Source: Geomonas oryzisoli
GTDB taxonomy: Bacteria > Desulfobacterota > Desulfuromonadia > Geobacterales > Geobacteraceae
Assembly (NCBI RefSeq): GCF_018986915.1
Contig: NZ_CP076723.1
Span: 2,017,501 to 2,081,500, forward strand
Direction: 5' to 3'
DNA length: 64,000 nt
A program made the position numbers and the translations under genes. A model generated the notes under the pieces. The model saw only the letters and a list, made by a program, of their open reading frames with translations. It did no database searches and had not been told where the DNA came from. The number at the start of each line of letters is the position of its first letter. The first letter of the stretch is position 1. Of the stretch, positions 23,110 through 37,187 are shown one piece after another.

Positions 23110-23124
23110 GCATAAGGTGTGCCA
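23110..23124 (-). promoter_or_regulatory. Sigma-54 promoter of the GDH operon
   Basis: Minus-strand TGGCACACCTTATGC, with GG and GC separated by exactly ten bases, matches the TGGCAC-N5-TTGC consensus in 10 of 10 fixed positions except A for T at the -12 box. Predicted start of transcription near 23098, about 119 bp before the GDH start codon. Confidence 0.75.
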
Positions 23125-23274
23125 TTGTGGCGGAAGGAAGGGGGGGGAGGTGGTTGCTGCGTGATGATTGGGGAGTGTGTGGTAAGTTGCCGGAGTTCCG
23201 CCGGATTTACACGTTGTGCACGGATGGGGCGAGGGGGTGAGACAACGGCGTTGCATGGGGCACACCCTGCAAGT

Positions 23275-23290
23275 GATGCGGTCATGCATG
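23275..23290. promoter_or_regulatory. Activator palindrome upstream of GDH operon
   Basis: GATGC-GGTCAT-GCATG, one mismatch from the GATGC-N6-GCATC palindrome found before each sigma-54 unit of this region. It lies about 160 bp upstream of the -24 box, a normal distance for an enhancer site. Confidence 0.55.
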
Positions 23291-23391
23291 CGCCGGGCGT
23301 CTGGCGTGTTTGGTCAGGGGAGGATTGAATGGTTCGGTTTGTTAATTCGCGTAAAGGGCCGTAAATGCATCTGTTTTGTTTTTGAGTGGTT

Positions 23392-23427
23392 CATGCCCGG
23401 TTGCATCTCCGGATGCGGAGTGGCATC
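23392..23427. promoter_or_regulatory. Tandem activator palindromes upstream of GDH
   Basis: CATGC-CCGGTT-GCATC (23392-23407) and the perfect GATGC-GGAGTG-GCATC (23412-23427), start to start 20 bp. They are about 270-300 bp upstream of the GDH sigma-54 promoter. Apart from these, the promoter, and the repeat/terminator near 23454-23554, I see nothing else in the 596-bp stretch 22980-23575. Confidence 0.7.
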
Positions 23428-23453
23428 TCACGGTGTTACAGTACAAACAACGC

Positions 23454-23516
23454 AATTCCCCCCTGCCCCCCTTTCACAAGGAGGGAACCTTAGGGGACGC
23501 GCGGCGCTTCGTGGAT
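23454..23516. repeat. Dispersed C/G-tract intergenic repeat
   Basis: Runs aattcccccctgccccc and acaaggagggaacc followed by ggggacgcgcggcgcttcgt, closely related to the copy at 7683-7750. Confidence 0.6.
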
Positions 23517-23521
23517 AAATC

Positions 23522-23554
23522 AAAAGGGGCCTCCCGGTTGGGAGGCCCCTTTTT
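23522..23554 (-). terminator. Terminator of the permease gene
   Basis: Perfect 10-bp stem GGGGCCTCCC / GGGAGGCCCC with a GGTT loop, flanked by A and T runs on both sides, so it can work in either direction. It closes the permease gene on the minus strand. Confidence 0.85.
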
Positions 23555-23575
23555 CGTGCCCGGTGCAGGGGGAGG

Positions 23576-25087
23576 CTATTCGGTTTCGGCGGCTGCGTAG
23601 TCGACGGCGCAGGTGGTGCGCGGCTTGAAGAGGTCGTCGAAACGCACCTTGCTGTGCAGCTTCGCCAGCAACTCGTGATCAACCTTGCGCATCTTGTGGA
23701 TGACGATGGGCAGGATCAGCAGCGGAACCCCTGCATAGAAGCCGATGCGCAGGCTCTCGTTGAAGGCGGTGAAGACCAGACAGCCGACCATGCTCCAGAT
23801 GCCCAGGTGCGCGAGGTAGGGGAAGCCCGGCGCCACGTACTTGAGGTCCTTGGTGCTGTAGCCGTTGGCGACCAGGCGCTTGCGGAAGTTCATCTGCGAC
23901 CAGATGATGGAGATCCAGGCGATGGTCCCGGTGAAGCCTGAGATGGAGAGGAGGGCGACGAACACCTTGGAGGCGGCGAAGAAGTAGGAGCCTGCCAGGA
24001 AGAACCAGACGCCTGCGATGACGAAGAGGGCGGCGTTGCCCGGAACCTGGTGCTTGTTAAGGGCGCCCAGGAACTTCGGTGCCATCCCTTCGCGCGCCAT
24101 GGCCCAGGTGACCCGGACCGTGGAGTAGAGGCCGGAATTGGCGCAGGAAAGGGCGGCGGTGAGGACCACGAAGCTGAAGAGGCCGGCGGCCCAGTGCAGT
24201 CCGTACTGCTCCAGGGCCGCGGCGAAGACGGAGCCGCCTTCGACGCCTGCCTTGGCCCACGGGAAGATGGTCACCAGCAGGAATACTGGGACCATGAACA
24301 GCATGATGACCCTGATGGTGATGCTGCGCACGGCGGTAGGGATGGTCTTGCTGGGATCTTTAGCCTCACCGGCGGTAAGACCGATGATCTCAACCCCCTG
24401 GAAGTTGACCAGCAGCATGACCATGGTGGTTAGCAGCACGAAGCCGCCGTTGGGGAAGATGCCACCGTTGCCGGTCAGGTAGGTGCTGCCCAGGCCGGCC
24501 GGGTGCTGGTTGGGGATCACGTTGAAGTAGATGAGAACGGCAACTACGCAGAAGACGACGATGGCCATGACCTTGACGATGGAGAGCCAGAACTCGATCT
24601 CGCCGAAGGCCTCAACATGGGAGATGTTGACCACCGTGATGACGATCCCGAAGAGGACTGCCCACATGAATTCGCTGGTGCCTGGCACGAAGGTCTTCAT
24701 GATGATGCCCCCCGCGATACATTCTGCGGGTATGTAGGCCATCCAGTTGAAGACGTAGCTCCAGCCGACCCCGGCCGCCCAGGAGGGGGAGATGAATTCG
24801 GAGGCGTAGGTGACGAAAGAGCCCGAAATGGGGATGGCGACGGCCAACTCGCCCAGGGCGATCATGACCAGGTAGACGATGAGGCCGCCCAAGGCGTAGG
24901 TGATGAAGGCGGACGGGCCGACGTCCTTGACGATGGAACCGGTGCCGAGGAAGAAAGCAGAGCCGATGATGCCCCCCAGGGCAATCATCATGACGTGGCG
25001 GTCCTTAAGCCCTCGTTTGAGGCCGCCGTCGTCGAACGATTCAAATCCAGTTTCCAACAGATGCACTTCTTTAACTTGATCTGTCAT
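23576..25087 (-). CDS. APC-superfamily amino acid/amine permease
   Basis: A 503-residue inner-membrane transporter with about 12 hydrophobic spans. The start of span 1, LKRGLKDRHVMMIALGGIIG, and the TAGEAKDPSKTIPTA stretch after span 6 are typical of the AAT branch of the APC superfamily that includes GabP. Such carriers import amino acids or GABA by proton symport. It lies 91 bp after patA copy 1, with a terminator hairpin between, so it is probably expressed partly by read-through. GABA, putrescine or a similar amine is a reasonable substrate from context only. Confidence 0.85.
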   Translation of the reverse strand: MTDQVKEVHLLETGFESFDDGGLKRGLKDRHVMMIALGGIIGSAFFLGTGSIVKDVGPSAFITYALGGLIVYLVMIALGELAVAIPISGSFVTYASEFISPSWAAGVGWSYVFNWMAYIPAECIAGGIIMKTFVPGTSEFMWAVLFGIVITVVNISHVEAFGEIEFWLSIVKVMAIVVFCVVAVLIYFNVIPNQHPAGLGSTYLTGNGGIFPNGGFVLLTTMVMLLVNFQGVEIIGLTAGEAKDPSKTIPTAVRSITIRVIMLFMVPVFLLVTIFPWAKAGVEGGSVFAAALEQYGLHWAAGLFSFVVLTAALSCANSGLYSTVRVTWAMAREGMAPKFLGALNKHQVPGNAALFVIAGVWFFLAGSYFFAASKVFVALLSISGFTGTIAWISIIWSQMNFRKRLVANGYSTKDLKYVAPGFPYLAHLGIWSMVGCLVFTAFNESLRIGFYAGVPLLILPIVIHKMRKVDHELLAKLHSKVRFDDLFKPRTTCAVDYAAAETE

Positions 25088-25137
25088 TGGGTTCTCCGTT
25101 CATTGGAATAAATAACAAAAATGGTTTTATCTGTATA

Positions 25138-25172
25138 CAAAAAGCCGCGGCGGGAAGAATCCCGGCCGCGGC
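25138..25172 (-). terminator. Terminator/attenuator between patA copy 1 and permease
   Basis: On the minus strand GCCGCGGCCGGGA and TCCCGCCGCGGC pair with one bulge and are followed by TTTTTG. It lies just after the patA stop and before the permease, so it would lower permease transcription relative to patA. Confidence 0.8.
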
Positions 25173-25178
25173 AGATAA

Positions 25179-26537
25179 TCATTGCTCCTTGGCGATGCTC
25201 TTGAACACGTCTTCGAGCCTGACCAGCATCTCGTCGATGAGGTCGTAGCCGATGGTGAGGGCGGGCTCGATCCTGATGCTCTTGGCGTTGATGAAGGTGC
25301 CCGCGGTCAAGACGCGGCGGCTGAACATGCCCGAGGCGACCTGCCACCCCATCTCGTCGGTCGGGAAGTCCATGCCGATCAGGAGGCCCCTGCCGCGCAC
25401 TTCCTTCAGCACCTTCGGGTACTTCGCCTTCAGCCCCTCCAGCTTCTCTACGATGTACTCGCCTTTCTCGCGCGCCTGGCGCGGCAGATCTTCTTCCAGC
25501 ATCACGTTGATGTAGGCCAACGCCGCGGCGCAGGCGATCGGGTTGCCGCCGGTGGTGGTGGAGTGCATGAAGGGGTTGGGCTCCATGCATTCCCACACCT
25601 TCTTGCTGGCGAAGAAGCCGGAGCAGGGGATGACACCGCCGCCCAGCGCCTTGCCCAGGCAGATGATGTCCGGGGTCACGTTCCAGTGGTCCACGCCGAA
25701 CAGGGTGCCGGTGCGCCCGAGGCCGGTCTGCACCTCGTCCGCGATGAGGAGCACACCGTACTTGTCGCAGATCTCGCGCAGTTTCGGCCAGTAGTCGTCC
25801 GGCGGGATGATGGCGCCGGCCTCACCCTGGATCGGCTCGGCGATCATGGCGGCGATGCCGTCGCCCACCTGGTTTGCCGACTGGATCGCCTTCTCGACCG
25901 CGGCCGCGTCGCCGTAGGGTACGTGGCGCACGTTGCCCAGAAGCGGCAGGAGCGGCTCGCGGTACATCGCCTTGCCCATCAGGGTGAGCGGCCCCAGGGT
26001 CTTGCCGTGGAAGGCGCGCTCGGTGGAGATGAAACCGGCCTTGCCGGTGTAGAGCTTGGCGAGCTTCATGGCACCGTCCACCGCCTCGGTGCCGGAGTTG
26101 ATGAAGAAGCCGTACTGGATGTCGCCCGGGAGCAGGTGGGCGAGCACCTTGCCCAGGTGGGCGCGCAGCGGGTCGAGCATTTCCTGGCTGTACTGCGGGC
26201 TGCGGTCGAGCTGCGCCTTGGCGGCGGCGACGATCTTGGGGTGCCTGATGCCGGCGGAGTAGAGGCCGAAACCGCCCAGGATGTCGATGAACTCGCGGCC
26301 GCGGGTGTCGGTGAGGATGGAGCCCTGCCCGGTCCACTCGACGGAGGCGAAGTCGCCGGCCTCGGTCATGGACTTTCTGTACTTGAGCCACCCCTTGTTG
26401 ATGTGGTTGGCGAAGTTCTCAACGGTCTCCTGCTCGATCTTCTCGCGCTCCGCCGCCGGAACCTCGTGCTCCGGGGTCAGGAGCAGGTTCAGCATCCTCT
26501 GTGCTTCGCTTTGTGCGTACGCTACGTCTCTCGTCAT
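25179..26537 (-). CDS. patA: Putrescine aminotransferase, copy 1
   Basis: A 452-residue class III PLP aminotransferase very close in length and layout to E. coli PatA (459 residues), which transfers the amino group of putrescine or cadaverine to 2-oxoglutarate. Seen: phosphate loop NSGTEAVDGAMK (147-158), AFHGKTLG (175-182), PLP aspartate in LIADEVQTGLG (264-274), PLP lysine K296 (CLGKALGGGVIP). The block 25191-26551 is repeated almost perfectly at 33004-34364. ATG 26537 follows AAAGGAG. A sigma-54 promoter (26591) and paired palindromes (26818-26852) precede it. Confidence 0.9.
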   Translation of the reverse strand: MTRDVAYAQSEAQRMLNLLLTPEHEVPAAEREKIEQETVENFANHINKGWLKYRKSMTEAGDFASVEWTGQGSILTDTRGREFIDILGGFGLYSAGIRHPKIVAAAKAQLDRSPQYSQEMLDPLRAHLGKVLAHLLPGDIQYGFFINSGTEAVDGAMKLAKLYTGKAGFISTERAFHGKTLGPLTLMGKAMYREPLLPLLGNVRHVPYGDAAAVEKAIQSANQVGDGIAAMIAEPIQGEAGAIIPPDDYWPKLREICDKYGVLLIADEVQTGLGRTGTLFGVDHWNVTPDIICLGKALGGGVIPCSGFFASKKVWECMEPNPFMHSTTTGGNPIACAAALAYINVMLEEDLPRQAREKGEYIVEKLEGLKAKYPKVLKEVRGRGLLIGMDFPTDEMGWQVASGMFSRRVLTAGTFINAKSIRIEPALTIGYDLIDEMLVRLEDVFKSIAKEQ

Positions 26538-26551
26538 CACTGAATCTCCTT
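25191..26551 (-). repeat. 1361-bp direct duplication, copy 1
   Basis: Covers nearly all of patA copy 1 and its ribosome site. Offset to copy 2 is 7813 bp with the same orientation. The only difference noticed is at 26533 (G) versus 34346 (A), changing codon 2 from Thr to Met. Sequence on both sides diverges abruptly. Confidence 0.9.
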
Positions 26552-26590
26552 TAGACAGCAAAATGCGATGTGATATCGCTTTCTAATTTT

Positions 26591-26605
26591 GCACGGGACA
26601 TGCCA
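26591..26605 (-). promoter_or_regulatory. Sigma-54 promoter of patA copy 1
   Basis: Minus-strand TGGCATGTCCCGTGC, GG-N10-GC, close to TGGCAC-N5-TTGC. Predicted transcription start near 26579, about 42 bp before the patA ATG. Confidence 0.7.
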
Positions 26606-26817
26606 CGCTGAAAGGAGGCGTGACCGGAGAAGCGGCTGGAGGCGTGTTGGCAACTGGTCAGGTGGCCGAAGCTATTTTTGGTATACGGCTGATATAAAAC
26701 GATATTTCGTATACGCTGTTGATCGTGGTGAGCCCCGGTCTGAACTGCTTTTTTTTTCTGGAGGCAGGGGGGCGGCGCTGGCGTGCGCGGCGCTGGGATA
26801 CCTGAGGCATGGTTTGG

Positions 26818-26852
26818 GATGCATTGCCGCATCTTGGCTGCGGGTTTGCATC
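26818..26852. promoter_or_regulatory. Tandem activator palindromes upstream of patA
   Basis: Perfect GATGC-ATTGCC-GCATC (26818-26833) and GCTGC-GGGTTT-GCATC (26837-26852), 19 bp start to start, about 220-240 bp upstream of the -24 box. Besides these, the promoter, a 12-bp tandem repeat and a hairpin, the 426-bp stretch 26538-26963 shows nothing. Confidence 0.7.
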
Positions 26853-26856
26853 CGGG

Positions 26857-26902
26857 CGTGGACAGGAACGTGGACAGGAACGTGGACAGGAACGTGGACA
26901 GG
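26857..26902. repeat. 12-bp tandem repeat, 3.8 copies
   Basis: Unit cgtggacaggaa, three exact copies at 26857-26892 plus ten bases of a fourth. It lies directly next to the activator palindromes and between patA and the outer-membrane protein gene. Confidence 0.9.
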
Positions 26903-26922
26903 GAGAAAACTGGAAGGGGAGA

Positions 26923-26950
26923 CTGCAGGGGGGGCGTCCCCCCCCTGCAG
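26923..26950 (-). terminator. Strong hairpin after outer-membrane protein gene
   Basis: CTGCAGGGGGG and CCCCCCCTGCAG arms around a 2-4 base loop, 14 bases beyond the stop. It lacks a T run, so it may stabilise the 3' end or act as a weak terminator. Confidence 0.55.
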
Positions 26951-26963
26951 ATAGGCGGGGTAT

Positions 26964-27764
26964 TTAGAACGAGAGCATGGCTTTGATGCCGTAACAGTTT
27001 TTCGCGCCGATGCCGACGTTTTTGGCGTTGCTGCTCAGATGGTCGGAAAAGATGTAGGAGGGGGTGATGGTCACGTTATTCAACACCTTGTAGTCGATTG
27101 TGGCGGAAAGCTCGTAGTTGTGCCAGTCGCTGTAGATGCCGCTGCGGGAATCGAGATCGGTGTAGGCGGCGCTGGGGTTGTGCTGGTTGTAGGAAACCAA
27201 CGCCCCCAGGTTAAGAGTCAGCTTGTCCTGGATAAGGGGTACGGGCTGGGCGACCGAGGCGGTATAGAAAAGACCGTCGTTGCGCGCCTCCAGGAAGTCC
27301 CAGTAGATTCCCAGGGTCGGGTTGAGCAGGGTGTTGTAGGTGGCACGCAGGTAGAACTCGGCGGTATCCTCGGCGGCATCGAGCGAGAAGTACTGGGCGC
27401 CGACGTTGATGGTGACGTCCTTCACAAGCTCCGGAAGGGCGTAATTGATGATAGCGTCGTTCTCGGTGGTCTTCGCCTTGGCGTAGCCGTTGGCGCGGTT
27501 CTGATTGTTGAACCAGTAGCTGAAAGTGAAGGAGTTGTAGGTAAGATCCATGCCCCCCTGGGTGACGAAGGAACTGTTGGCGTTGAGCTGGTTGCCGCGG
27601 AAGAGGTACTTGTTCATCACTCCGATGTAGACATCGCCGTTCACCTTGGGCCCGGGGGGGAGGGCCGGCGCCTCGCCCTTTGCATGCGGATCGCCGTCCG
27701 CCGCCATTACCGCCGAGCCTAACATCAGAACCAACGCTGCTGCCAATAAACCGCTTTTGCTCAT
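26964..27764 (-). CDS. Outer-membrane porin-like protein (TorF-like)
   Basis: A 266-residue exported protein: signal peptide ending AVMAA (residues 1-22), then alternating polar/aromatic strands and a C-terminal phenylalanine after K-A-M-L-S, the usual signal for outer-membrane barrel assembly. The motif DVYIGVMNKYLFRGNQLN near the start resembles the TorF family of putative porins. CCAAAGGAGG precedes the ATG. A sigma-54 promoter at 27843 and a pair of activator palindromes at 28021-28055 lie upstream, so it probably belongs to the amine regulon and admits the substrate through the outer membrane. Confidence 0.7.
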   Translation of the reverse strand: MSKSGLLAAALVLMLGSAVMAADGDPHAKGEAPALPPGPKVNGDVYIGVMNKYLFRGNQLNANSSFVTQGGMDLTYNSFTFSYWFNNQNRANGYAKAKTTENDAIINYALPELVKDVTINVGAQYFSLDAAEDTAEFYLRATYNTLLNPTLGIYWDFLEARNDGLFYTASVAQPVPLIQDKLTLNLGALVSYNQHNPSAAYTDLDSRSGIYSDWHNYELSATIDYKVLNNVTITPSYIFSDHLSSNAKNVGIGAKNCYGIKAMLSF

Positions 27765-27842
27765 CTCTTCCTCCTTTGGGTGAAGTACAACAGTTTTTTA
27801 CATTGCAGTTGCTCATGAGGGGACTTTTGGGCGGGATGATCA

Positions 27843-27857
27843 GCACGAGGCGTGCCA
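27843..27857 (-). promoter_or_regulatory. Sigma-54 promoter of the porin-like gene
   Basis: Minus-strand TGGCACGCCTCGTGC: perfect -24 box, GG-N10-GC spacing, GTGC at -12. Predicted start near 27831, giving a leader of about 67 bases. Confidence 0.75.
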
Positions 27858-28020
27858 GATGCGTATACGGTTGGCGATGCAGTGGCGTATTCCCGGGAGA
27901 TTGGCAGGAAAAACCTGTTTTGCAGGATGATTTGGGATGGCAGAGGGGCGGTCGGGTGAGGCGGTGGGCGTTGTGAAATGGTCGGCCAGGGGCTGGCGAC
28001 GATACCGCCAACCCCTGTTT

Positions 28021-28055
28021 GATGCAATTCGGCATCATGAATGCGGCGAGGCATC
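28021..28055. promoter_or_regulatory. Tandem activator palindromes upstream of porin-like gene
   Basis: Perfect GATGC-AATTCG-GCATC (28021-28036) and AATGC-GGCGAG-GCATC (28040-28055), 19 bp start to start, 165-200 bp upstream of the promoter. I see nothing else in the rest of the 319-bp stretch 27765-28083. Confidence 0.75.
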
Positions 28056-28083
28056 CGCCGCGAGGGGGGAGAGGGAGGGGAAG

Positions 28084-29865
28084 CTAGGAAACGCCGTACT
28101 TCTTGAGCTTGCGGGCCACGGTGGACTGGTTGATCCCGAGTGCCTCGGCGATCCGGTACTGGTTGCCGTGCTCCTTCATGGCGTCGCTCAACAACGAACG
28201 CTCCACGCTTTCCAGGATCTGCTCCAGGGTCATGTCACCTGGCCACACCGGCAGGGTCTGCTCCGACTGCGACAGCGGTTTCTCTTCGAGACTGCCGAAA
28301 AGCTGCTTGGGGAGGTCCTGCAGGTCGATCACCTCGGTCTCGGACATGACCACCAGCCGCTCGCACAGGTTCATCAGTTCGCGCACGTTGCCGGGATAGC
28401 TGTAGGCAAGCAGGGCGTCGAGGGCGGCGCGGGCCAGACGCTTCTGCTTGCCGACCTTCTGGCTGAAATAGTCGATGTAGTGGCGGATGAGCGGTAAGAG
28501 GCATTCCTGGCGTTCGCGCAACGCGGGGATGTAGAGCGGGATCACGTTGAGGCGGTAGTAGAGGTCGAGGCGGAAGGTCTTTTCCACCACCATCTTTTCC
28601 AGGTCGCGGTGTGTGGCGGCGATGATGCGCACGTCGACCGTCCGCCCGGTGGTGCCGCCGAGCCTGGTCACGCGCCCGTCCTCGAGAAAGCGCAAAAGCT
28701 TCACCTGGGAGGCCAGCGGCAGTTCCGCGATCTCGTCCAGGAAGAGGATGCCGTTGTCGGCGAGCTCGAGGTAGCCGGGCTTGGCGGTCTGGGCGCCGGT
28801 GAAGGCGCCGCGTTCGTGCCCGAACAGTTCGGATTCGATGAGCGACTCCGGGATGGCGCCGCAGTTGAGCTTGATGATGGGCTTGGCGCTGCGGCTCGAA
28901 TTCTTGTGGATCAGGTCGGCAAAGAGCCCCTTGCCGACGCCGGATTCACCGTGGATCAGCACGGTCGAGTCGGCGGAGCTCACCTTGACCGCCTGGCGCA
29001 GGGCGGTGATCATGCGCGGGCTCTTGGCGATGATGGTCTGGGAGGCGAGCTCGGCCTGCTGCTGCTCCAGCATGTGGTGCCAGAACTGCCCCTTGATGGC
29101 TTCCTGGTCCTCCAGTTCGCGCTGCAGCTTGTCGATCTCGGTGATGTCCCGCTCCGAGACCACCACCCTGATGATGCCCCCCTCGTCGCCGAAAACCGGC
29201 GTGCCGGTGACGATGAGCTTGCGGTTTCCTTCGTTGACCAGCATGTTGACCACGCCCTTGGACCCGAGTACTTCCAGTGCAGGCGAGCGTTCCATGTACC
29301 CCTGCTCGATCAGTTCGCGCGCGGTCAGGCCGACCACCACCTCTTTCTTGACCCGGTTGTTGCGCTCGGCGGCCGGATTGACGCGCAGCACCACACCGTA
29401 GCCGTCGAATACCCAGAGTCCCTCCGAGGAGGAGTCGATGATGGCAGCCAGCTCCTTGGTTAGTTCCCGGAACGACCGCAACTGCCGGGTCATGATCTCG
29501 AGATCGGTGTTCTCCACGAAGACGCAGATGGCGCCGGATACCTCGTCGTCGACCATCACCGGGCTCACCGTGACCAGGAAGCTCGTTTCCCCCCTCTGAA
29601 CCGACAACTCGAAGCGGGGCCTGCGGTCGCGCATGGTCTCCACCACCTTGCTCCACAGCGCGGGGAACTGTTCTCTCAGGGAACTGCCCGGGTAGATGTC
29701 GAGGCTAACGCGACTGACCCGGTCGGACAGCAGCACGGTTCCGGCGGTGTTCACCGAGATGATGCCGTCGCCCATGGCGTTGTACTGCGCTGCATTGAAT
29801 GCGTCCTGGTGGGTCTGCTCCGGGGTGGGGGCGGTTTCGCCCACGAAATCAGCCATTATCGTCAT
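28084..29865 (-). CDS. TyrR-like sigma-54 activator with two PAS domains
   Basis: A 593-residue enhancer-binding protein. Two PAS-like domains (about 20-125 and 135-245) precede the AAA+ domain with Walker A GESGVGKG (306-313), the sigma-54 contact loop GAFTGA (353-358) and LFLDEIAELPL. The C-terminal helix-turn-helix (about 545-593, ending YRIAEALGINQSTVARKLKKYGVS in pieces) is of TyrR type, not Fis/NtrC type. TyrR-type proteins bind palindromes with a 6-bp centre, matching GATGC-N6-GCATC here. No receiver domain, so it probably senses a small molecule. ATG 29865 follows CAGGAG. Likely master regulator of the surrounding amine genes. Confidence 0.9.
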   Translation of the reverse strand: MTIMADFVGETAPTPEQTHQDAFNAAQYNAMGDGIISVNTAGTVLLSDRVSRVSLDIYPGSSLREQFPALWSKVVETMRDRRPRFELSVQRGETSFLVTVSPVMVDDEVSGAICVFVENTDLEIMTRQLRSFRELTKELAAIIDSSSEGLWVFDGYGVVLRVNPAAERNNRVKKEVVVGLTARELIEQGYMERSPALEVLGSKGVVNMLVNEGNRKLIVTGTPVFGDEGGIIRVVVSERDITEIDKLQRELEDQEAIKGQFWHHMLEQQQAELASQTIIAKSPRMITALRQAVKVSSADSTVLIHGESGVGKGLFADLIHKNSSRSAKPIIKLNCGAIPESLIESELFGHERGAFTGAQTAKPGYLELADNGILFLDEIAELPLASQVKLLRFLEDGRVTRLGGTTGRTVDVRIIAATHRDLEKMVVEKTFRLDLYYRLNVIPLYIPALRERQECLLPLIRHYIDYFSQKVGKQKRLARAALDALLAYSYPGNVRELMNLCERLVVMSETEVIDLQDLPKQLFGSLEEKPLSQSEQTLPVWPGDMTLEQILESVERSLLSDAMKEHGNQYRIAEALGINQSTVARKLKKYGVS

Positions 29866-29890: not shown

Positions 29891-29926
29891 GATGCCGTGG
29901 TGTGCCAATAAATGCATAGCTGCATC
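29891..29926. promoter_or_regulatory. Palindromes at the activator gene's own promoter
   Basis: AATGC-ATAGCT-GCATC (29911-29926) and a weaker GATGC-CGTGGT-GTGCC (29891-29906), 20 bp start to start, only 25-60 bp from the activator start codon. The weaker one overlaps a sequence (TGGCACACCACGGCA on the minus strand) that resembles a sigma-54 promoter but has one base too few between GG and GC. Binding here would favour autorepression. Confidence 0.5.
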
Positions 29927-30139
29927 AAAAATGCAAGAAGGAATGCCGTGGCAGGATTTATTCACGATCCGCGCCGATTCCGTATACGGGGCGCGCTCCT
30001 GGTAGGAGGACGCGATGAAAGGGCAGTTTATGTGCCGGGCAGGTTCGGAACCCGAGATTGCCGCCTTTGTCCTAACGCCGGTTTTCATCATCTGGGCCGG
30101 CAACCCGCCTGAGAGGATGCTAACCGTGATGCCGGAGTT

Positions 30140-30174
30140 GATGCTGATTCGCATTGTCGATGCAGTTGAGCATC
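30140..30174. promoter_or_regulatory. Tandem activator palindromes upstream of gabT
   Basis: GATGC-TGATTC-GCATT (30140-30155) and perfect GATGC-AGTTGA-GCATC (30159-30174), 19 bp start to start, roughly 110-140 bp before the candidate gabT promoter. The rest of the 506-bp divergent region 29866-30371 shows no gene. Confidence 0.75.
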
Positions 30175-30280: not shown

Positions 30281-30295
30281 TGGTACGTTCCTTGA
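30281..30295 (+). promoter_or_regulatory. Candidate sigma-54 promoter of gabT
   Basis: TGGTACGTTCCTTGA keeps GG and the TTG of the -12 box at the right spacing but has A for C in the final GC. A second candidate, CGGCATGCACCGGGC at 30319-30333, keeps GG-N10-GC but fits the flanks less well. Either would place the start 25-65 bp before gabT. Confidence 0.45.
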
Positions 30296-30371
30296 TAACC
30301 TGGTTACCCGGTGCCCGGCGGCATGCACCGGGCGCGCATGCAATCTACTTCAGTCAAAGGAGCCAGAATCG

Positions 30372-31673
30372 ATGAGAACCCCAGAAGTGTCGCAAGCGTT
30401 GCGCAACAAGCATGTACCGCCCGGTGTGAGCATTTTGTCCCCGTCCTTCGTCAAGGAGGCCCGTGGCGCCATTATCGTGGATACCGAAGGTCGCGAATTT
30501 ATCGACTTCGCCGGGGGGATCGGCGTCGCCAACGTCGGGCACTGCCATCCCAAGGTCGTCGCCGCCGTCAAGGACCAAGCCGAGAAGTTCCTGCACACCT
30601 GCTTCCACATCGTCCCCTACGACCTGTACATCGACCTCGCGGCGCGGTTGAACGAACTGGCACCCGGCGACGGGGACAAGATGACCATCTTCCTCAATTC
30701 CGGCGCGGAGGCCGTGGAAAATGCCATCAAGATCGCGCGCCACGCCACCGGGCGCCCCTCGGTGATCGCCTTCGAGAACGGCTTTCACGGGCGTACCAAC
30801 CTCACCATGACCCTCACCAGCAAGGTGAAGCCGTACAAGCTCGGTTTCGGGCCCTTCGCGCCGGAAATCTACCGGATGCCCTACGCCTACTGCTACCGCT
30901 GTCCCTTCGGGCTCAAGCACCCAGGCTGCAACACCGCCTGCGCAGAACACCTGGAGGAATTCTTCATAAGCCACGTCGCCGCCGAGAAGACTGCAGCGGT
31001 CATCGCCGAGCCGATCCAGGGGGAAGGGGGCTTCGTCACCCCGCCCCCCGAATACTTCCCCAAACTGCGCGAGATCTGCGACAAGCACGGCATCATGCTG
31101 ATCATCGACGAGGTGCAGACCGGGATGGGGCGCACCGGCAAGTTGTTCGCCATCGATCACTGGGGAGTGGTCCCCGACCTGGTTACCACGGCCAAGAGCC
31201 TGGGGGGCGGACTCCCCATCTCGGCGGTAACCGGGAAGGCCGAAGTTATGAGCGCGCCGCACGTAGGGGGGCTGGGAGGGACCTACGGGGGGAACCCCAT
31301 CGCGCTGGCAGCGGCCCAGGCGGTGCTGGAGATATTCACCACCGACGGCCTGCTCGCTCGCGCCGAGGAACTGGGCGTGAAGATGCGCGCCCGCTTCGAC
31401 GAGATGCAAACGCGCCACGAGATCATCGGCGAGGTGCGCGGCAAGGGGCCCATGCTGGCCCTGGAACTGGTGCGCGACCGGGAGAGCAAGGAGCCTGCGG
31501 CGGCTGAGGCGAAGAAACTGGTCAACCTCTGCTATCAGAAAGGGCTGGTGGTCCTGTCCTGCGGCAACCACGGCAACGTGATCCGAACACTGATGCCGCT
31601 GGTCATCACCGACGCCGAGCTGGAGCGCGGCATGTCCATTCTCGAGGAGTCTCTGCAGGAACTGAGGGGCTAG
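30372..31673 (+). CDS. gabT: 4-Aminobutyrate aminotransferase
   Basis: A 433-residue class III aminotransferase of the GABA type, converting GABA and 2-oxoglutarate to succinate semialdehyde and glutamate. Seen: NSGAEAVENAIK (109-120), GFHGRTN (137-143), AEPIQGEGGF (212-221), PLP aspartate in IIDEVQTGMGRTG (244-256), K275 (TTAKSLGGGLP). An insert at 174-190 holds four cysteines (C174, C177, C186, C190) in a zinc- or iron-sulfur-like spacing. ATG 30372 follows AAAGGAG; about 119 upstream in-frame codons are promoter sequence. Divergent from the activator gene. 5-Aminovalerate could be an alternative substrate. Confidence 0.9.
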   Translation: MRTPEVSQALRNKHVPPGVSILSPSFVKEARGAIIVDTEGREFIDFAGGIGVANVGHCHPKVVAAVKDQAEKFLHTCFHIVPYDLYIDLAARLNELAPGDGDKMTIFLNSGAEAVENAIKIARHATGRPSVIAFENGFHGRTNLTMTLTSKVKPYKLGFGPFAPEIYRMPYAYCYRCPFGLKHPGCNTACAEHLEEFFISHVAAEKTAAVIAEPIQGEGGFVTPPPEYFPKLREICDKHGIMLIIDEVQTGMGRTGKLFAIDHWGVVPDLVTTAKSLGGGLPISAVTGKAEVMSAPHVGGLGGTYGGNPIALAAAQAVLEIFTTDGLLARAEELGVKMRARFDEMQTRHEIIGEVRGKGPMLALELVRDRESKEPAAAEAKKLVNLCYQKGLVVLSCGNHGNVIRTLMPLVITDAELERGMSILEESLQELRG

Positions 31674-31679: not shown

Positions 31680-31715
31680 GGCGCAGCCGGCGGGTGTCTC
31701 ACTGCCGGCTGCGCC
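31680..31715 (+). terminator. Strong hairpin between gabT and moaD-like gene
   Basis: GGCGCAGCCGGC and GCCGGCTGCGCC form a perfect 12-bp stem with a 12-base loop, followed by GTTTCC. The T run is short, so it may attenuate and stabilise instead of fully terminating, leaving some read-through into the MoaD-like gene. Confidence 0.6.
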
Positions 31716-31736
31716 GTTTCCGCATCGGAGGGTGCA

Positions 31737-31961
31737 TTGAAAGTAACCATCAAGCTTTTCGCTCACTACCGCATCGGCAGGTTCAGGGAGGCCGTGCGCG
31801 AGTATGCTCCGGGCACCTCGGTGCGCGCCGGCATCGCCGAGCTCAGGTTCAACGAGCCCGGCCCGGGCGTGATCCTGGTTAACGGTGCCCCGGCACAGCT
31901 GGACCACGTGCTGCAGGAGGGGGACACAGTGGCCCTCTTTCCGCTCATCTCCGGGGGGTAG
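31737..31961 (+). CDS. MoaD/ThiS-like sulfur-carrier protein
   Basis: A 74-residue beta-grasp protein ending in LISGG, the C-terminal Gly-Gly that is adenylated and thiocarboxylated in MoaD/ThiS proteins. The strands MKVTIKLFAHYR, GVILVNGAPAQ and GDTVALFPLI are in the usual order. It starts with TTG at 31737, with CGGAGGG upstream, which suggests low translation. Given two tungsten oxidoreductases and a ThiF-like activating enzyme nearby, it most likely supplies sulfur for the pterin cofactor. It is 63 bp from gabT. Confidence 0.8.
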   Translation: MKVTIKLFAHYRIGRFREAVREYAPGTSVRAGIAELRFNEPGPGVILVNGAPAQLDHVLQEGDTVALFPLISGG

Positions 31962-31978
31962 CCCGTACTCACTCTGCT

Positions 31979-32818
31979 TCAGGTCAAAAGTGCGATTGCC
32001 GCCAGCGCGGTCGCAATTCCCCCCATCTGCAGCCGCGAAACCCGCTCCTTTAGTATCAGCCAGGCCAGAAAGACGGTGGCGCCCGGAAAGAGGGAGCTGA
32101 GCACCGCCGCCACGTCCATCCTCCCCGATTGTCCCGCCACGATGTAAAACCCGTTGCCGGCAACGTCGAGAAATGCGTTGAGAAGCACCATCCGCCAGGG
32201 GAGTGCGCCCCAGTCGCCGCCCCCCTGTTTTCCGGCAGCCATAAACAAGAGCAGCACCAGGACCCCGCCGCAGCGGACCGCTACCATCGGCCAGAGTACC
32301 GCTCCGCCGCTCGCGCTATGCATGAGTATCAGGAAAAGCCCCAGGCAGCTCCCGGAAAGTAGCGGCAGCCAGACGTGGATGGGCTTGAGCGGTTCTACCG
32401 GCCCCTGCGCATCTTCCCGGCACAGAAACCACACCGAGGCAAGGGCAAGTGCCAGCCCGGCCACCACCTTCCCGTCGGGAATCCCCTGGGTGAGCATACC
32501 CACGATCACCGGGAGCGCAGCCGCGGTGAGTGCGGACAGCGGCGCGGCGAGGCTCAGCCGGCCAAGCGTCATGGACCGGTACAGCAGCAGGATACCCAGG
32601 GCGTCGAAGCCGCCGGCAAGCATGTTGAGCGCCCACCCCCCGGCAGTTACCGGTGTTTCCCGTACCAGCAGGGCCACCGGGACCAGCATGGCGAGCCCTG
32701 AGGCGATGGTGGCCAGGGTCATGAAGAAGGCACCGGTGCGGCGGCTGCTGGTGCCGCCGATGAAGTCGCAGGTCCCCCAGCAGAAGGCTGTCGCGAGACC
32801 GCAGAGCACGGAGAGCAT
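31979..32818 (-). CDS. EamA/DMT-family transporter
   Basis: A 279-residue membrane protein with ten hydrophobic spans in two internally similar halves, as in the drug/metabolite transporter superfamily. The opening LCGLATAFCWGTCDFIGG and the late segment LSSLFPGATVFLAWLILKERVS are characteristic of EamA repeats. AAAGGTG precedes the ATG. Such carriers export amino acids or other metabolites. It is convergent with the MoaD-like gene, and no palindrome or sigma-54 promoter was seen before it. Confidence 0.85.
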   Translation of the reverse strand: MLSVLCGLATAFCWGTCDFIGGTSSRRTGAFFMTLATIASGLAMLVPVALLVRETPVTAGGWALNMLAGGFDALGILLLYRSMTLGRLSLAAPLSALTAAALPVIVGMLTQGIPDGKVVAGLALALASVWFLCREDAQGPVEPLKPIHVWLPLLSGSCLGLFLILMHSASGGAVLWPMVAVRCGGVLVLLLFMAAGKQGGGDWGALPWRMVLLNAFLDVAGNGFYIVAGQSGRMDVAAVLSSLFPGATVFLAWLILKERVSRLQMGGIATALAAIALLT

Positions 32819-32883
32819 GGTGGTTCACCTTTAAGGTAGTAGTTGAGGGTTAGGGCGCAATAAGTTGTTACAGCATAGTTGTC

Positions 32884-32917
32884 AAAAAGGGGGCGCGCGA
32901 AAGCGCCCCCCCTTTAT
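32884..32917 (-). terminator. Terminator of the AOR2-patA copy 2 operon
   Basis: AAGGGGGCGC and GCGCCCCCCTT arms with a GCGAAA-type loop. On the minus strand it is followed by TTTTTGAC, placing it about 75 bp after the patA copy 2 stop. Confidence 0.85.
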
Positions 32918-32991
32918 TTGAATCGTTCCGGATTACGTGGCGATGCGTGTCGGTTTCCCGCCTTAGAGCCCTTTCCCTCTAGCCGCGGCGG

Positions 32992-34350
32992 CTAGAGGTC
33001 GCCGGCGATGCTCTTGAACACGTCTTCGAGCCTGACCAGCATCTCGTCGATGAGGTCGTAGCCGATGGTGAGGGCGGGCTCGATCCTGATGCTCTTGGCG
33101 TTGATGAAGGTGCCCGCGGTCAAGACGCGGCGGCTGAACATGCCCGAGGCGACCTGCCACCCCATCTCGTCGGTCGGGAAGTCCATGCCGATCAGGAGGC
33201 CCCTGCCGCGCACTTCCTTCAGCACCTTCGGGTACTTCGCCTTCAGCCCCTCCAGCTTCTCTACGATGTACTCGCCTTTCTCGCGCGCCTGGCGCGGCAG
33301 ATCTTCTTCCAGCATCACGTTGATGTAGGCCAACGCCGCGGCGCAGGCGATCGGGTTGCCGCCGGTGGTGGTGGAGTGCATGAAGGGGTTGGGCTCCATG
33401 CATTCCCACACCTTCTTGCTGGCGAAGAAGCCGGAGCAGGGGATGACACCGCCGCCCAGCGCCTTGCCCAGGCAGATGATGTCCGGGGTCACGTTCCAGT
33501 GGTCCACGCCGAACAGGGTGCCGGTGCGCCCGAGGCCGGTCTGCACCTCGTCCGCGATGAGGAGCACACCGTACTTGTCGCAGATCTCGCGCAGTTTCGG
33601 CCAGTAGTCGTCCGGCGGGATGATGGCGCCGGCCTCACCCTGGATCGGCTCGGCGATCATGGCGGCGATGCCGTCGCCCACCTGGTTTGCCGACTGGATC
33701 GCCTTCTCGACCGCGGCCGCGTCGCCGTAGGGTACGTGGCGCACGTTGCCCAGAAGCGGCAGGAGCGGCTCGCGGTACATCGCCTTGCCCATCAGGGTGA
33801 GCGGCCCCAGGGTCTTGCCGTGGAAGGCGCGCTCGGTGGAGATGAAACCGGCCTTGCCGGTGTAGAGCTTGGCGAGCTTCATGGCACCGTCCACCGCCTC
33901 GGTGCCGGAGTTGATGAAGAAGCCGTACTGGATGTCGCCCGGGAGCAGGTGGGCGAGCACCTTGCCCAGGTGGGCGCGCAGCGGGTCGAGCATTTCCTGG
34001 CTGTACTGCGGGCTGCGGTCGAGCTGCGCCTTGGCGGCGGCGACGATCTTGGGGTGCCTGATGCCGGCGGAGTAGAGGCCGAAACCGCCCAGGATGTCGA
34101 TGAACTCGCGGCCGCGGGTGTCGGTGAGGATGGAGCCCTGCCCGGTCCACTCGACGGAGGCGAAGTCGCCGGCCTCGGTCATGGACTTTCTGTACTTGAG
34201 CCACCCCTTGTTGATGTGGTTGGCGAAGTTCTCAACGGTCTCCTGCTCGATCTTCTCGCGCTCCGCCGCCGGAACCTCGTGCTCCGGGGTCAGGAGCAGG
34301 TTCAGCATCCTCTGTGCTTCGCTTTGTGCGTACGCTACGTCTCTCATCAT
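32992..34350 (-). CDS. patA: Putrescine aminotransferase, copy 2
   Basis: A 452-residue class III aminotransferase identical to copy 1 except residue 2 (Met for Thr) and the last three residues (GDL for KEQ). All catalytic residues including K296 are kept. It is the third gene of the AOR2-polyferredoxin-patA operon (81 bp after the ferredoxin stop), unlike copy 1, which has its own promoter and a permease behind it. Near-identity means very recent duplication or ongoing gene conversion. It links amine transamination directly to AOR2 aldehyde oxidation. Confidence 0.9.
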   Translation of the reverse strand: MMRDVAYAQSEAQRMLNLLLTPEHEVPAAEREKIEQETVENFANHINKGWLKYRKSMTEAGDFASVEWTGQGSILTDTRGREFIDILGGFGLYSAGIRHPKIVAAAKAQLDRSPQYSQEMLDPLRAHLGKVLAHLLPGDIQYGFFINSGTEAVDGAMKLAKLYTGKAGFISTERAFHGKTLGPLTLMGKAMYREPLLPLLGNVRHVPYGDAAAVEKAIQSANQVGDGIAAMIAEPIQGEAGAIIPPDDYWPKLREICDKYGVLLIADEVQTGLGRTGTLFGVDHWNVTPDIICLGKALGGGVIPCSGFFASKKVWECMEPNPFMHSTTTGGNPIACAAALAYINVMLEEDLPRQAREKGEYIVEKLEGLKAKYPKVLKEVRGRGLLIGMDFPTDEMGWQVASGMFSRRVLTAGTFINAKSIRIEPALTIGYDLIDEMLVRLEDVFKSIAGDL

Positions 34351-34364
34351 CACTGAATCTCCTT
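33004..34364 (-). repeat. 1361-bp direct duplication, copy 2
   Basis: Same block as 25191-26551, same orientation. It begins inside the last codons of the gene and ends within the ribosome site, so only the coding unit was copied and the promoter was not. Confidence 0.9.
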
Positions 34365-34431
34365 GTCGCTTCGCGTGAAGCATCTGGTGTAGAGCTATCA
34401 ATAGCACCTTCCTGCTGAAAAGGTGCAGGTT

Positions 34432-34950
34432 CTAGCCTCGTGAGTTCCTTTTCAACGCTTCGGCAACCTTGTGCCGCTTCTCGAGCGGTGTGCCCGAGTT
34501 GTGTCGTGTCTTCATCTGCGCCGCCTTGAGCTGGAAGAGCGCGGCATCCCCGGTGGTATGCACGAGAGCTTCGGAGTGGCACTCCTTGGCGCAGGCCGGA
34601 TCGCCGTCACAGAGATCGCACTTGTAGGGGATCCCCTTGGCGTCCTGCTCGACCATGCCGTAGGGACAGGCGGTGACACAGGCGCCGCATCCGGAGCACA
34701 GGTCGCGGTTGAGACGAACCACCCCGTCCGCGCCGCGGAACATGGCGTCGGTAGGGCAGACTTCCAGGCAGTTTGCCTTGGGGCACTGGAAGCAGATGTT
34801 GGGTACCGAGAAGCCGCGCAGCGGGAAGTTGGTCACGCGCATCCTGGCCTTGCTGGGTTGAAAGACGCCCTCCTTGTTGGCGGAGCAGGCGAGGGTGCAC
34901 CTGTTGCATCCGGTGCACAGATCCGGGTTGGCGAAGAGTTCTTTTTTCAA
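34432..34950 (-). CDS. Polyferredoxin subunit for AOR2
   Basis: A 172-residue protein with sixteen cysteines in four groups: C12/15/18/22, C53/56/61/65, C85/88/91/95 and C111/114/120/124, enough for four [4Fe-4S] clusters in the HycB/DMSO-reductase-B arrangement. It starts 11 bp after the AOR2 stop, so it is almost certainly its electron-transfer partner, as in AOR enzymes with a small FeS subunit. The tail after residue 135 is basic and helical. No signal peptide or twin arginine, so it works in the cytosol. Confidence 0.9.
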   Translation of the reverse strand: MKKELFANPDLCTGCNRCTLACSANKEGVFQPSKARMRVTNFPLRGFSVPNICFQCPKANCLEVCPTDAMFRGADGVVRLNRDLCSGCGACVTACPYGMVEQDAKGIPYKCDLCDGDPACAKECHSEALVHTTGDAALFQLKAAQMKTRHNSGTPLEKRHKVAEALKRNSRG

Positions 34951-34961
34951 GGTCAGGTCTC

Positions 34962-36731
34962 CTATAGGGTCGTGGTCTCGAGTCCGAGCGCGGCCAGCTT
35001 GCGCGACGAAGGGATCCCCTTGGCGCTCCAGTCGCGCAGTTCATAGTAGGACTGCATGGCGCGGGCGAGGTCGGCTCTGCTAAACACGCGCCCCTCGTGG
35101 CGTCCCCCTTCGAGCGGTCGCTCCATAATCTTCTTGGGAAGCGTATCGTCGGCCGCAGTGAAGCCTGCCGCAAGGTTGAAGAGCCTGCTCAGGGTCCAGA
35201 TCCGCTCTCCGGCCCGGTCCAGTTCCTCGGCGCTCACCGCCTCACCCAGACCGGCCGACATGAGGTCCGCCTCGATGGATGTGTTGACCGTGCCCCAGAA
35301 GTCGCAGAAACCGAGCGACCACTTGATCGAGTTGGCGTTTTGCGCGTCGACCACGTCCGAGACCAGCGCGTCGATGTCGTGCGGGTCGGTGGCAAAGATG
35401 GGGAAGGCGCGCAGGTGGCAGGCGCCGCGCTCGCTGGTTGCGTAGGCAATCCCCATGCCGAAGTTGCCGCGCGGCTCGTAAGCGGGCATCTCGAGCCCCT
35501 TCACCTCCATGCTGAGCTCTTCAGCGCCGTACTTGGCGGCCAGGTGCTTCGCCCCCTTGGCCAGGTCGCGTCCGCGCTCGGTGGAGAGGGTGGCGATCTC
35601 GTAGACGACCTTGAGGTATTCGTCCACCTGCCCGAAACGCAGGTTGAAGTTGTGAACGCCGTTCTCGGTCATCTCCATGGCGAGGCTGATGGTGCTGCCG
35701 CAGGTCATGGTGTCGAGTCCGAGGTCGTCGCACAGGCGGTTGAAGCGGATCACCGCCTCGAGGTCGTGGATGTCGCAGTTGGAGCCCCCCAGGCACAGTG
35801 TCTCGTATTCGGGCCCCTCGATCTCGGCGGAGTTGACCCGGGTGAACTTGCCGCAGGCCATCGGGCAGGAGGCACAGGCGCGGTTGCCCAATTTGGCGGC
35901 CTGGATGGCGTCGGAGTTGAGCTGCTCCTTCCTTCCGTTGAACCCCTTGGTGTAGTTCCTGGTGGGATGGATCCCCATCTCGTTGGTCACCTCCACCAGG
36001 ATGGGGGTGCCGTCGGTCTTGGCCCAGAGGTTGTCGTCGCACAACAGGTCGTTTTTGGTGTAGTGATCGGTGCGCTCAAGGAACCTGGACATGTCGGCGA
36101 CCCGGACCGCGCCGGTGCCGCGGCAGACGATCCCCTTCAGGTTCTTGCTCCCGAACAGGGCACCGGTCCCGCCGCGGCCGAACTGGCGGTAGGATTCGGA
36201 GCCGATCATGCTGTAGGTGATCATGTTCTCGGCGGCGGGGCCGATGGCGAGCGTCTTGGCACCGTGGGCGCCGATGGCCGCTTCCATCAGTTTCTCGGTC
36301 TCGAAGATCCCCTGGCCGGTCATGTGCTCGGCGCTTTCGAGGCTGACCCTGTCGTTGTCGATCTTGAGGAAGACCGGCGCGGAGGCGCGCCCCTTGATGA
36401 TGATGCCGTCATAACCGGCGTACTTCAGTTCCGGGCCGAAGGAGCCCCCCACGTTGGACTCGAAGATGGTCCCGGTGTGCGGCGACTTGGAGACCAGGCA
36501 CATGCGGGAGGCGAGCGGGACCAAGGTCCCGCACAGGGGGGCGGTCATGATGACCACGACGTTCTCCGGCGCGAGCGGGTCGATCTCGGGCGAGACCGCA
36601 TCCGTGTAGTAGCGCAGCGCCAGCCCCCATGCTCCCCAGTACTCGCGGAGCCATTCGGCGCGCAACGGCTCAGTCGTGACCGATTCCGCGCTCAGGTCGA
36701 CCATCAGCATCTTTCCCATGTAAAGATTCAT
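34962..36731 (-). CDS. aor: Tungsten aldehyde:ferredoxin oxidoreductase (AOR2)
   Basis: A 589-residue AOR catalytic subunit. It opens with GKMLMVDLS, has the pterin-binding block FGRGGTGALFGSKNL at about 184-198 and the cluster cysteines C286-x2-C289-x3-C293 plus C476, matching characterised tungsten AOR in spacing. It oxidises aldehydes to acids with two low-potential electrons. First gene of an operon with polyferredoxin and patA copy 2. Sigma-54 promoter at 36816 and palindromes at 37005 and 37153-37187 lie upstream. 4-Aminobutanal from putrescine is the substrate I infer. ATG 36731 is chosen; GTG 36737 is also possible. Confidence 0.9.
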   Translation of the reverse strand: MNLYMGKMLMVDLSAESVTTEPLRAEWLREYWGAWGLALRYYTDAVSPEIDPLAPENVVVIMTAPLCGTLVPLASRMCLVSKSPHTGTIFESNVGGSFGPELKYAGYDGIIIKGRASAPVFLKIDNDRVSLESAEHMTGQGIFETEKLMEAAIGAHGAKTLAIGPAAENMITYSMIGSESYRQFGRGGTGALFGSKNLKGIVCRGTGAVRVADMSRFLERTDHYTKNDLLCDDNLWAKTDGTPILVEVTNEMGIHPTRNYTKGFNGRKEQLNSDAIQAAKLGNRACASCPMACGKFTRVNSAEIEGPEYETLCLGGSNCDIHDLEAVIRFNRLCDDLGLDTMTCGSTISLAMEMTENGVHNFNLRFGQVDEYLKVVYEIATLSTERGRDLAKGAKHLAAKYGAEELSMEVKGLEMPAYEPRGNFGMGIAYATSERGACHLRAFPIFATDPHDIDALVSDVVDAQNANSIKWSLGFCDFWGTVNTSIEADLMSAGLGEAVSAEELDRAGERIWTLSRLFNLAAGFTAADDTLPKKIMERPLEGGRHEGRVFSRADLARAMQSYYELRDWSAKGIPSSRKLAALGLETTTL

Positions 36732-36815
36732 GTTCACCCCGTGTTTTGTCTGAAATTGGATGCAGCGGGGCCGCCTTTGGAAACCGTGCGCCCCTTCGTC
36801 GGCGCTGTCGTGTTA

Positions 36816-36830
36816 GCACAGGGCGTGCCA
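36816..36830 (-). promoter_or_regulatory. Sigma-54 promoter of the AOR2 operon
   Basis: Minus-strand TGGCACGCCCTGTGC: perfect -24 box, GG-N10-GC. Predicted start near 36804, about 70 bp before the AOR2 start codon. Confidence 0.75.
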
Positions 36831-37004
36831 CGAGGCGGAACCGCTGAGGGACGGAGAGGAGTGGGCGCCAGGTTCGGCAGGGTGCAGTGTACAACCTGCT
36901 GTTTTCACGCAGATCGTGATGCTTTGAAAGCGCCTCGTTGTATCACGTGCCTTTTGCACGGAGCGCGCGGAGCCTGCCAGCCGCATCACGTTCCGGCATG
37001 GGAT

Positions 37005-37020
37005 GATGCAGGGGCGCATC
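37005..37020. promoter_or_regulatory. Activator palindrome upstream of AOR2
   Basis: Perfect GATGC-AGGGGC-GCATC, about 180 bp upstream of the AOR2 -24 box. A degenerate half-site (GCATG at 36996-37000) sits 20 bp away in phase. Confidence 0.7.
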
Positions 37021-37152
37021 TGTCGTAAAAACGGTGGGGAAAGCCGGGACTGGGGCCGGATAATTGCGCTGCTGCTTGGTATTGCGAGGAGGTGACGGAA
37101 GAGACGGGACGTAATCGGTGGACCGAAAGCGGTGCGGCAGCCACCACGGTGT

Positions 37153-37187
37153 GATGCGGCGCTGCATCAAGGATGCAGCGCCACATT
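37153..37187. promoter_or_regulatory. Tandem activator palindromes further upstream of AOR2
   Basis: Perfect GATGC-GGCGCT-GCATC (37153-37168) and GATGC-AGCGCC-ACATT (37172-37187), 19 bp start to start, about 330-350 bp before the AOR2 promoter and just beyond the ThiF-like stop. The rest of the 483-bp stretch 36732-37214 shows no gene. Confidence 0.7.

Follow-up and report, generated by a model that had tools for sequence, protein, structure and literature searches.

Regulons in which an enhancer-binding protein switches on sigma-54 promoters are a known kind of system. In Desulfovibrio vulgaris they consist of a motif upstream of the promoters and a regulator gene nearby, and mostly comprise one to four operons (PMC4641369). 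Here we describe a new member with the same logic (motif, sigma-54 promoters, adjoining regulator) in a stretch of 64,000 bases from Geomonas oryzisoli, called the window below (bases 2,017,501-2,081,500 of the single contig of 4,846,465 bases that makes up the 4.85-Mb genome). In the window, the palindrome GATGC-N6-GCATC stands in pairs upstream of five sigma-54 transcription units, in the midst of which lies the gene of an activator (28084-29865). To judge from the sequence, the pairs are very probably the enhancer sites of this activator, and the five units are co-activated for the breakdown of putrescine and 4-aminobutyrate (GABA).

The nearest functional parallel that we found is GabR of Bacillus thuringiensis, which is described as a PAS-AAA-HTH protein that activates the sigma-54-dependent gabT of its own cluster, with GABA or succinic semialdehyde as signal (PMC4279683). 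The activator of the window is likewise a PAS-AAA-HTH protein beside a sigma-54 gabT, a likeness in working. GabR binds a 21-bp repeat, which lies in a footprint of 96 bp close to the promoter, and does not bind its own promoter (PMC4279683), whereas the sites described here have 5-bp arms in pairs spaced by 19-20 bp, lie upstream of five units and include a pair at the activator's own promoter. TyrR, which is reported to carry an ACT domain besides PAS (PMC4279683), has the operator TGTAAA-N6-TTTACA with a 6-bp centre and an essential G-N14-C, and represses its own gene, while GcsR has tandem sites with N4-spaced arms (PMC4374768, PMC4894688). An initial annotation of the window had taken the 6-bp centre of the palindrome as a link to TyrR. 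The centre and the spacing agree, since the outer G and C stand at the same G-N14-C distance, and the tandem sites resemble those of GcsR, but the arms, RATGC and GCATY, are not those of the TyrR operator.

Our literature search, which did not query the palindrome as such and did not cover most papers behind subscription, returned no recognised description of the motif or of the activator family. TyrR, putrescine, aminobutyrate and GATGC are absent as word starts from the main text of the Desulfovibrio study (PMC4641369), and GATGC, putrescine and gabT from that of a paper on RpoN of Geobacter sulfurreducens (PMC2725144).

The sites, promoters and activator of the window are as follows, the palindromes having no strand. 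GDH stands for glutamate dehydrogenase, AOR for aldehyde:ferredoxin oxidoreductase, and AT1 and AT2 for two aminotransferases.

23109-23124, minus strand: sigma-54 promoter TGGCACACCTTATGCT of the GDH unit
23275-23290: single palindrome with one change, upstream of GDH
23392-23427: paired palindrome, 20 bp, upstream of GDH
26590-26605, minus strand: sigma-54 promoter TGGCATGTCCCGTGCA of the AT1-permease unit
26818-26852: paired palindrome, 19 bp, upstream of AT1-permease
27842-27857, minus strand: sigma-54 promoter TGGCACGCCTCGTGCT of a gene for a 266-aa protein
28021-28055: paired palindrome, 19 bp, upstream of the 266-aa gene
28084-29865, minus strand: activator with PAS-type sensor, sigma-54 AAA+ domain with GAFTGA, and HTH_50/Fis-type DNA-binding domain
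29911-29945: pair at the activator's own promoter, AATGC-N6-GCATC, N3, then a weaker AATGC-N6-GAATG
30140-30174: paired palindrome, 19 bp, upstream of gabT
30281-30296, plus strand: sigma-54-type promoter TGGTACGTTCCTTGAT of gabT, TGGTACG-N4-TTGAT (GG-N10-GA)
36815-36830, minus strand: sigma-54 promoter TGGCACGCCCTGTGCT of the AOR operon
37005-37020: lone exact palindrome before the AOR operon; L016 has it as well, at 2409
37153-37187: paired palindrome, 19 bp, upstream of the AOR operon

All thirteen palindrome positions of the initial annotation are present: six exact (23412, 26818, 28021, 30159, 37005, 37153), six with one change (23275, 23392, 26837, 28040, 29911, 30140) and one with two (37172); the site at 29911 has its weaker partner at 29930. 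The exact word is expected 0.23 times in the window, none of 100 shuffles reached six copies, and all six lie between 23.4 and 37.2 kb. With up to two changes the window holds 82 matches against 40.6 expected, and seven further one-change matches (9306, 14626, 17742, 31382, 31592, 31820, 48175) include three inside gabT or the next gene. Genome-wide, the exact palindrome occurs at 28 places, where about 17 are expected by chance (shuffle mean scaled up). Against a background of the other 22 sites, six within 14 kb have a Poisson probability of about 9e-11. The single palindrome is thus clustered at the locus, but it is not specific to it, and one copy carries little meaning because of the 28 exact places, so that we rejected it as a specific mark. 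For the lone exact sites elsewhere, open frames are a poor guide to a coding or non-coding position, as long ones overlie intergenic sites too (15 of the 28 exact places were tried).

The pair behaves differently. The 19-bp form occurs with up to three mismatches at five places in the genome, four of them in the locus (one or two mismatches) and one elsewhere (three mismatches), while the 20-bp form with up to two mismatches occurs only as the GDH pair. Genome pairs with at most two mismatches are therefore confined to the locus, and the spacing of 19-20 bp that the initial annotation had noticed is borne out. A 12-bp tandem repeat of 3.8 perfect copies (26857-26902) adjoins the AT1 pair.

The pairs are kept at the same promoters in relatives. 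Among 141 genomes of the order, the Geobacterales, ten hold an activator orthologue of at least 70% identity (chosen threshold 1e-230). G033 (62%) passes the threshold but groups with paralogues in the tree, and the best protein of G096 (59%) just fails it. Five of the ten are close Geomonas relatives, and the activators of the other five are 71-85% identical; the closest named relatives of the activator are those of Geomonas paludis (99%) and Geomonas azotofigens (98%). In the 600 bases upstream of the target genes, 39 of 44 copies have a pair with at most two mismatches (gabT 10/10, AOR operon 9/10, AT1-permease 4/5, 266-aa gene 8/9, GDH 8/10). The count leaves out AT2 of G013, the 266-aa gene of G053 (no upstream sequence), AT1 of G053 (87 bases upstream) and the activator genes. 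In 3000 stretches of 600 bases simulated with a first-order Markov model, the frequency was 0.001 with up to three mismatches and none had two or fewer, and none of 48 copies of operon-internal or neighbouring genes reached three, the lowest having four. These counts favour the single regulon that had been proposed for the locus. A scan of the genome and its relatives, which the initial annotation had called for, thus finds the pair specific and conserved, and the single word elsewhere as well.

Sigma-54 matches were scored on a scale of our own, with thresholds of at least 18 and at least 20. The four promoters that had been named before are present, each one base lower than first given, and are the only sites in the window that score at least 20; a fifth, at gabT, had been missed. 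The gabT match scores 18-20 in all ten genomes, with identical 16 bases in five. Across the ten genomes, a match of at least 18 precedes every one of the 44 targets (null 0.046), and for 35 of them it scores at least 20 (null 0.005), while none of 19 control copies (9 eam, 5 perm, 5 thiF) reaches 18. By their coordinates, pair and promoter are separated by distances that range from about 130 bp at gabT to about 350 bp at AOR. The activator gene itself has no conserved sigma-54 promoter among the ten genomes, the best scores being 13-15.5 in eight. Two candidates, one at -361 on the gabT side of the window (score 18.5) and one at -161 in G011 (score 20.5), were rejected, as they are absent in the others.

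By its layout the activator is predicted to be a one-component sigma-54 enhancer-binding protein, and its targets have, as judged from sequence, the sites farther upstream and the -24/-12 promoters that belong to this class. Its AAA+ domain matches Sigma54_activat of Pfam with 228.4 bits (cut-off 20.2), and the GAFTGA loop is present in 31 of 32 family rows, including its own; the row without it is L056, a 44% partial row. Its DNA-binding domain matches HTH_50, the type of HTH found in TyrR, with 42.8 bits (cut-off 27). To this extent the earlier label "TyrR-like" holds, for the DNA-binding domain only. The NCBIfam TyrR equivalog is not reached (246.1 bits, cut-off 576), no ACT domain was matched by Pfam, and a model of the sensor part, of moderate confidence (predicted local distance difference test, pLDDT, 73.4; predicted template modelling score, pTM, 0.46), shows two PAS-like folds, the listed matches in the Protein Data Bank (PDB) being mostly PAS or LOV proteins. 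Because of the missed cut-off and the sensor folds, the protein does not classify as a TyrR by domain content. The best NCBIfam match is PrdR (NF041552), whose cut-off of 795 is also missed (392.5 bits, residues 145-612 of the longer frame scanned). The full-length model is poor (pLDDT 62.2, pTM 0.27).

Pairs and activator occur in the same genomes. With at most one mismatch, and K allowed for G in one arm (chosen after GATTC had appeared in relatives), pairs are found in all ten activator-positive genomes and in one of the 131 others (Fisher about 2e-14, uncorrected for kinship). In the family set of 48 genomes, with two mismatches, the five genomes with an orthologue hold three to five pairs each; of the other 43, five have one pair and 38 none, and a reversed control pattern matches 2 of the 48.

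The regulators of the family also carry pairs on their own promoters. We searched up to 435 bases upstream of 29 family regulators, of which L026 and L126 are the same protein, and left out L039, L040 and L043-L047 as well as the short paralogues. A relaxed form of the pair (NATKC-N6-GMATN, at most two mismatches, picked after some of the regulator sequences had been viewed) is present in 27 of the 29 (null 0.002). The targets of the orthologues have RATGC-N6-GCATY, the outer G of the arm being A in 28% of the sites, whereas the paralogue promoters mostly have TATKC-N6-GMATA; only the arms are conserved among sites, and the centres vary. In a tree rebuilt without L056, whose long branch had distorted the first one, and without L126, the ten orthologues fall on one side of a branch with support 100/100. 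The genome of G. oryzisoli itself encodes two paralogues, 60% and 64% identical to the activator:

2505000-2520000 and 4000000-4018000 of the genome: paralogue activators L145 and L146

A genome search with the paralogue form gave two places without mismatch (one strand), both paralogue promoters, just upstream of the paralogue genes at 4,007,392 and 2,514,431-2,515,873; the former promoter is close to the sequences from which the pattern was drawn, and the latter had not been viewed beforehand. One paralogue adjoins a second gabT, and the other a PutA-type gene, whose sigma-54 match scores 20.5. The pair thus goes with the regulator family, most of whose members examined bear a version of it at their own genes, and this points to the family as the binder. 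Together with the co-occurrence across genomes, this lends support to the activator as the candidate binder of the pairs, as the initial annotation had supposed.

A number of points weigh against this reading. Five of the 44 targets lack a good pair: the AOR operon (three mismatches) and AT1 (five) of G011, the 266-aa gene (six) and GDH (six) of G098, and GDH (seven) of G081. The 44 counts are not independent because they include close relatives and pairs common to divergent genes (AOR and gabT, and GDH and the activator, in G053; the 266-aa gene and gabT in G081, G111 and G110). The exception among the 131 genomes, G096, has in L133 (region 8978-10640) a perfect pair before polyamine-transporter fragments, PotC- and PotD-like, and an EamA gene. 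It has no activator orthologue, only paralogues of 59-60%, and its best sigma-54 score, 18.0, overlaps the pair; the locus may have decayed. Two of the 29 regulators, L035 and L074, have no own-promoter pair, and a reversed control of the paralogue form likewise produced a single match at up to two mismatches. Several patterns were shaped on relatives before counting, so that the P values are optimistic. Finally, the AOR orthologue follows the distribution of the activator (nine of the ten activator-positive genomes and no other among the 141; a contig end truncates it in G053). Co-occurrence alone therefore cannot tell the regulator from its target module, and our attempt to separate them in this way failed.

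It is on this last point that another regulator of the same module could enter, binding the pairs while the neighbouring activator acts elsewhere: the module genes and the activator are inherited together, and the genome holds 47 places with a match to the activator, mostly confined to its AAA+ and C-terminal part. We regard this as improbable, since the own-promoter pairs track the activator family even at the two paralogues in other neighbourhoods, and all five units have sigma-54 promoters that need such an activator, with this one in their centre. That the paralogues also act at GATGC pairs, so that several related activators share them, is unlikely too, if a little easier to imagine. Their recognition part is nearly the same (INQSTVARKLKKYG in the activator, VNQSTIARKLKKHG or VSQPTIARKLKRYG in the paralogues), as is the pair layout, but the outer base of the arm differs (G or A at the targets, mostly T at the paralogue promoters). 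Moreover, 14 of 19 Geomonas genomes have no orthologue, 12 of these 14 have paralogues, and a pair with at most two mismatches occurs in just one of the 14, as a single pair, and in none with one mismatch. That the palindromes are RNA hairpins, repeats or words arisen by chance in the GC-rich gaps, for which the number of single words in the genome might speak (28 against about 17), hardly comes into question: the arms alone are conserved while the centres vary, pairs are very rare by chance, and the target pairs, being upstream of the promoters, are not part of the predicted transcripts.

Our preferred reading, with the activator at 28084-29865 as the binder, suggests the following model. Dimers of the activator would occupy the two palindromes of a pair and form the AAA+ ring there; with the DNA looped between pair and promoter, a distance of about 130-350 bp, they would open the sigma-54 polymerase at the five promoters. 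Glutamate dehydrogenase, AT1 and the permease, the 266-aa protein, GabT and the operon of AOR, an iron-sulfur protein and AT2 would thereby be co-induced. As signal, the PAS domains probably sense putrescine, GABA or a semialdehyde. The activator most likely represses its own gene, as the lack of a conserved sigma-54 promoter and the own-promoter pair near the start codon suggest. In several paralogues the pair overlies, by eye, a TTGMAT-N16-CATAAT-like promoter, which would suggest self-repression as for TyrR; in the window the -10-like part is weaker.

The genes of the module and its surroundings are the following.

16692-18080, minus strand: class-III transaminase of the PRK07046 subfamily, following the second AOR-family gene on the same strand
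18118-19950, minus strand: second AOR-family protein, following GDH on the same strand and possibly in one operon with it
20004-22979, minus strand: NAD-type GDH (PF05088/PF00208), start chosen from the sequence
23576-25087, minus strand: amino acid permease (PF00324)
25179-26540, minus strand: AT1, putrescine aminotransferase type (NF008570)
26964-27764, minus strand: 266-aa protein, no family found, start resembling a signal peptide by eye
30372-31673, plus strand: GabT, 4-aminobutyrate transaminase (TIGR00700, 574.9 bits, cut-off 506.65)
31737-31961, plus strand: ThiS/MoaD-type small protein ending in GG, after gabT (PF02597, 40.2 bits, cut-off 22.5)
32992-34362, minus strand: AT2, second putrescine aminotransferase type, near-identical to AT1 (NF008570)
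34432-34950, minus strand: 4Fe-4S protein between AOR and AT2
34962-36731, minus strand: aldehyde:ferredoxin oxidoreductase (AFOR_N and AFOR_C)

The enzyme families indicate a path from putrescine over GABA to succinate, in keeping with the amine catabolism that had been assigned to the locus. AT1 (649.5 bits) and AT2 (649.1) both exceed the cut-off of the putrescine aminotransferase model NF008570 (612), and GabT exceeds that of its own model; a second putrescine model, TIGR03372, is not reached (493.5 bits, cut-off 658.65). We infer the substrates and the metal of the enzymes from their families. AT1 or AT2 would convert putrescine to 4-aminobutanal, which would become GABA; GabT would turn this into succinate semialdehyde, and succinate would follow. 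AOR would take one or both of the aldehyde steps, as it could oxidise 4-aminobutanal, succinate semialdehyde or both, and GDH would recycle glutamate. Of four PF00171 matches in the genome, one is a GabD above cut-off and one is part of a PutA-type gene, and because of this GabD elsewhere in the genome, AOR is not required for succinate semialdehyde, a further point against the model. In G110 the AOR operon continues into PotA-, PotB-, PotC- and PotD-like genes, all below cut-offs, the first of which scores slightly better as PhnT2; these genes favour polyamines as substrate. Frames of comparable length also follow AT2 in G098, G081 and G111.

The AOR protein matches solved aldehyde:ferredoxin oxidoreductases over its full length (PDB 9mqx, 1aor, 9g7j, 8c0z) and, like them, has an adjoining Fe-S protein; unlike them, it lies in an operon with a putrescine-type aminotransferase and beside a dedicated activator. 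The one paper retrieved in which putrescine, aldehyde ferredoxin oxidoreductase and tungsten occur together is an archaeal genome study. The ThiS/MoaD-type protein lies within the module and a ThiF/MoeB-type protein (37215-38039) beside it, as if for the supply of the metal-pterin of AOR. The second AOR-family protein, whose L016 counterpart shares 25% identity with the first AOR, may also belong to the regulon, together with the PRK07046-type transaminase (16692-19950). The 266-aa protein has no family match in Pfam or NCBIfam, but the cluster retains a relative (45-98% identity) in the eight other genomes examined; in G053 the relative lies at a contig end. The sigma-54 score of its gene is 20.5 in the window and in those eight genomes. 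The DNA of AT1 and AT2 is 99.93% identical over 1361 bp, and the copies within each of five Geomonas genomes are 97.0-99.9% alike, while those of the other four genomes are 90.6-97.4% identical to those of the window. This looks like gene conversion; in G021, however, the ranges within and between genomes are not clearly different.

Tentatively, and at slightly less than even odds, we suggest that the family of PAS-type sigma-54 activators in the order has split into branches for putrescine and GABA (window), GABA (second gabT) and proline (putA), which kept the 19-bp paired layout and changed the outer base of the arm (G or A against mostly T). The branch of the window would hold a whole ferredoxin-linked putrescine pathway, in which a tungsten-type AOR would replace the usual NAD-dependent aminobutyraldehyde dehydrogenase.

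The locus provides a concrete, testable regulon for an activator family of which our literature search brought up no recognised described member. As one genome holds three paralogues whose operators are related yet distinct, it would offer a compact system for studying the split of DNA specificity after duplication. For the organism, the arrangement suggests that the aldehydes from putrescine may be passed to an AOR-type enzyme, and hence to ferredoxin.

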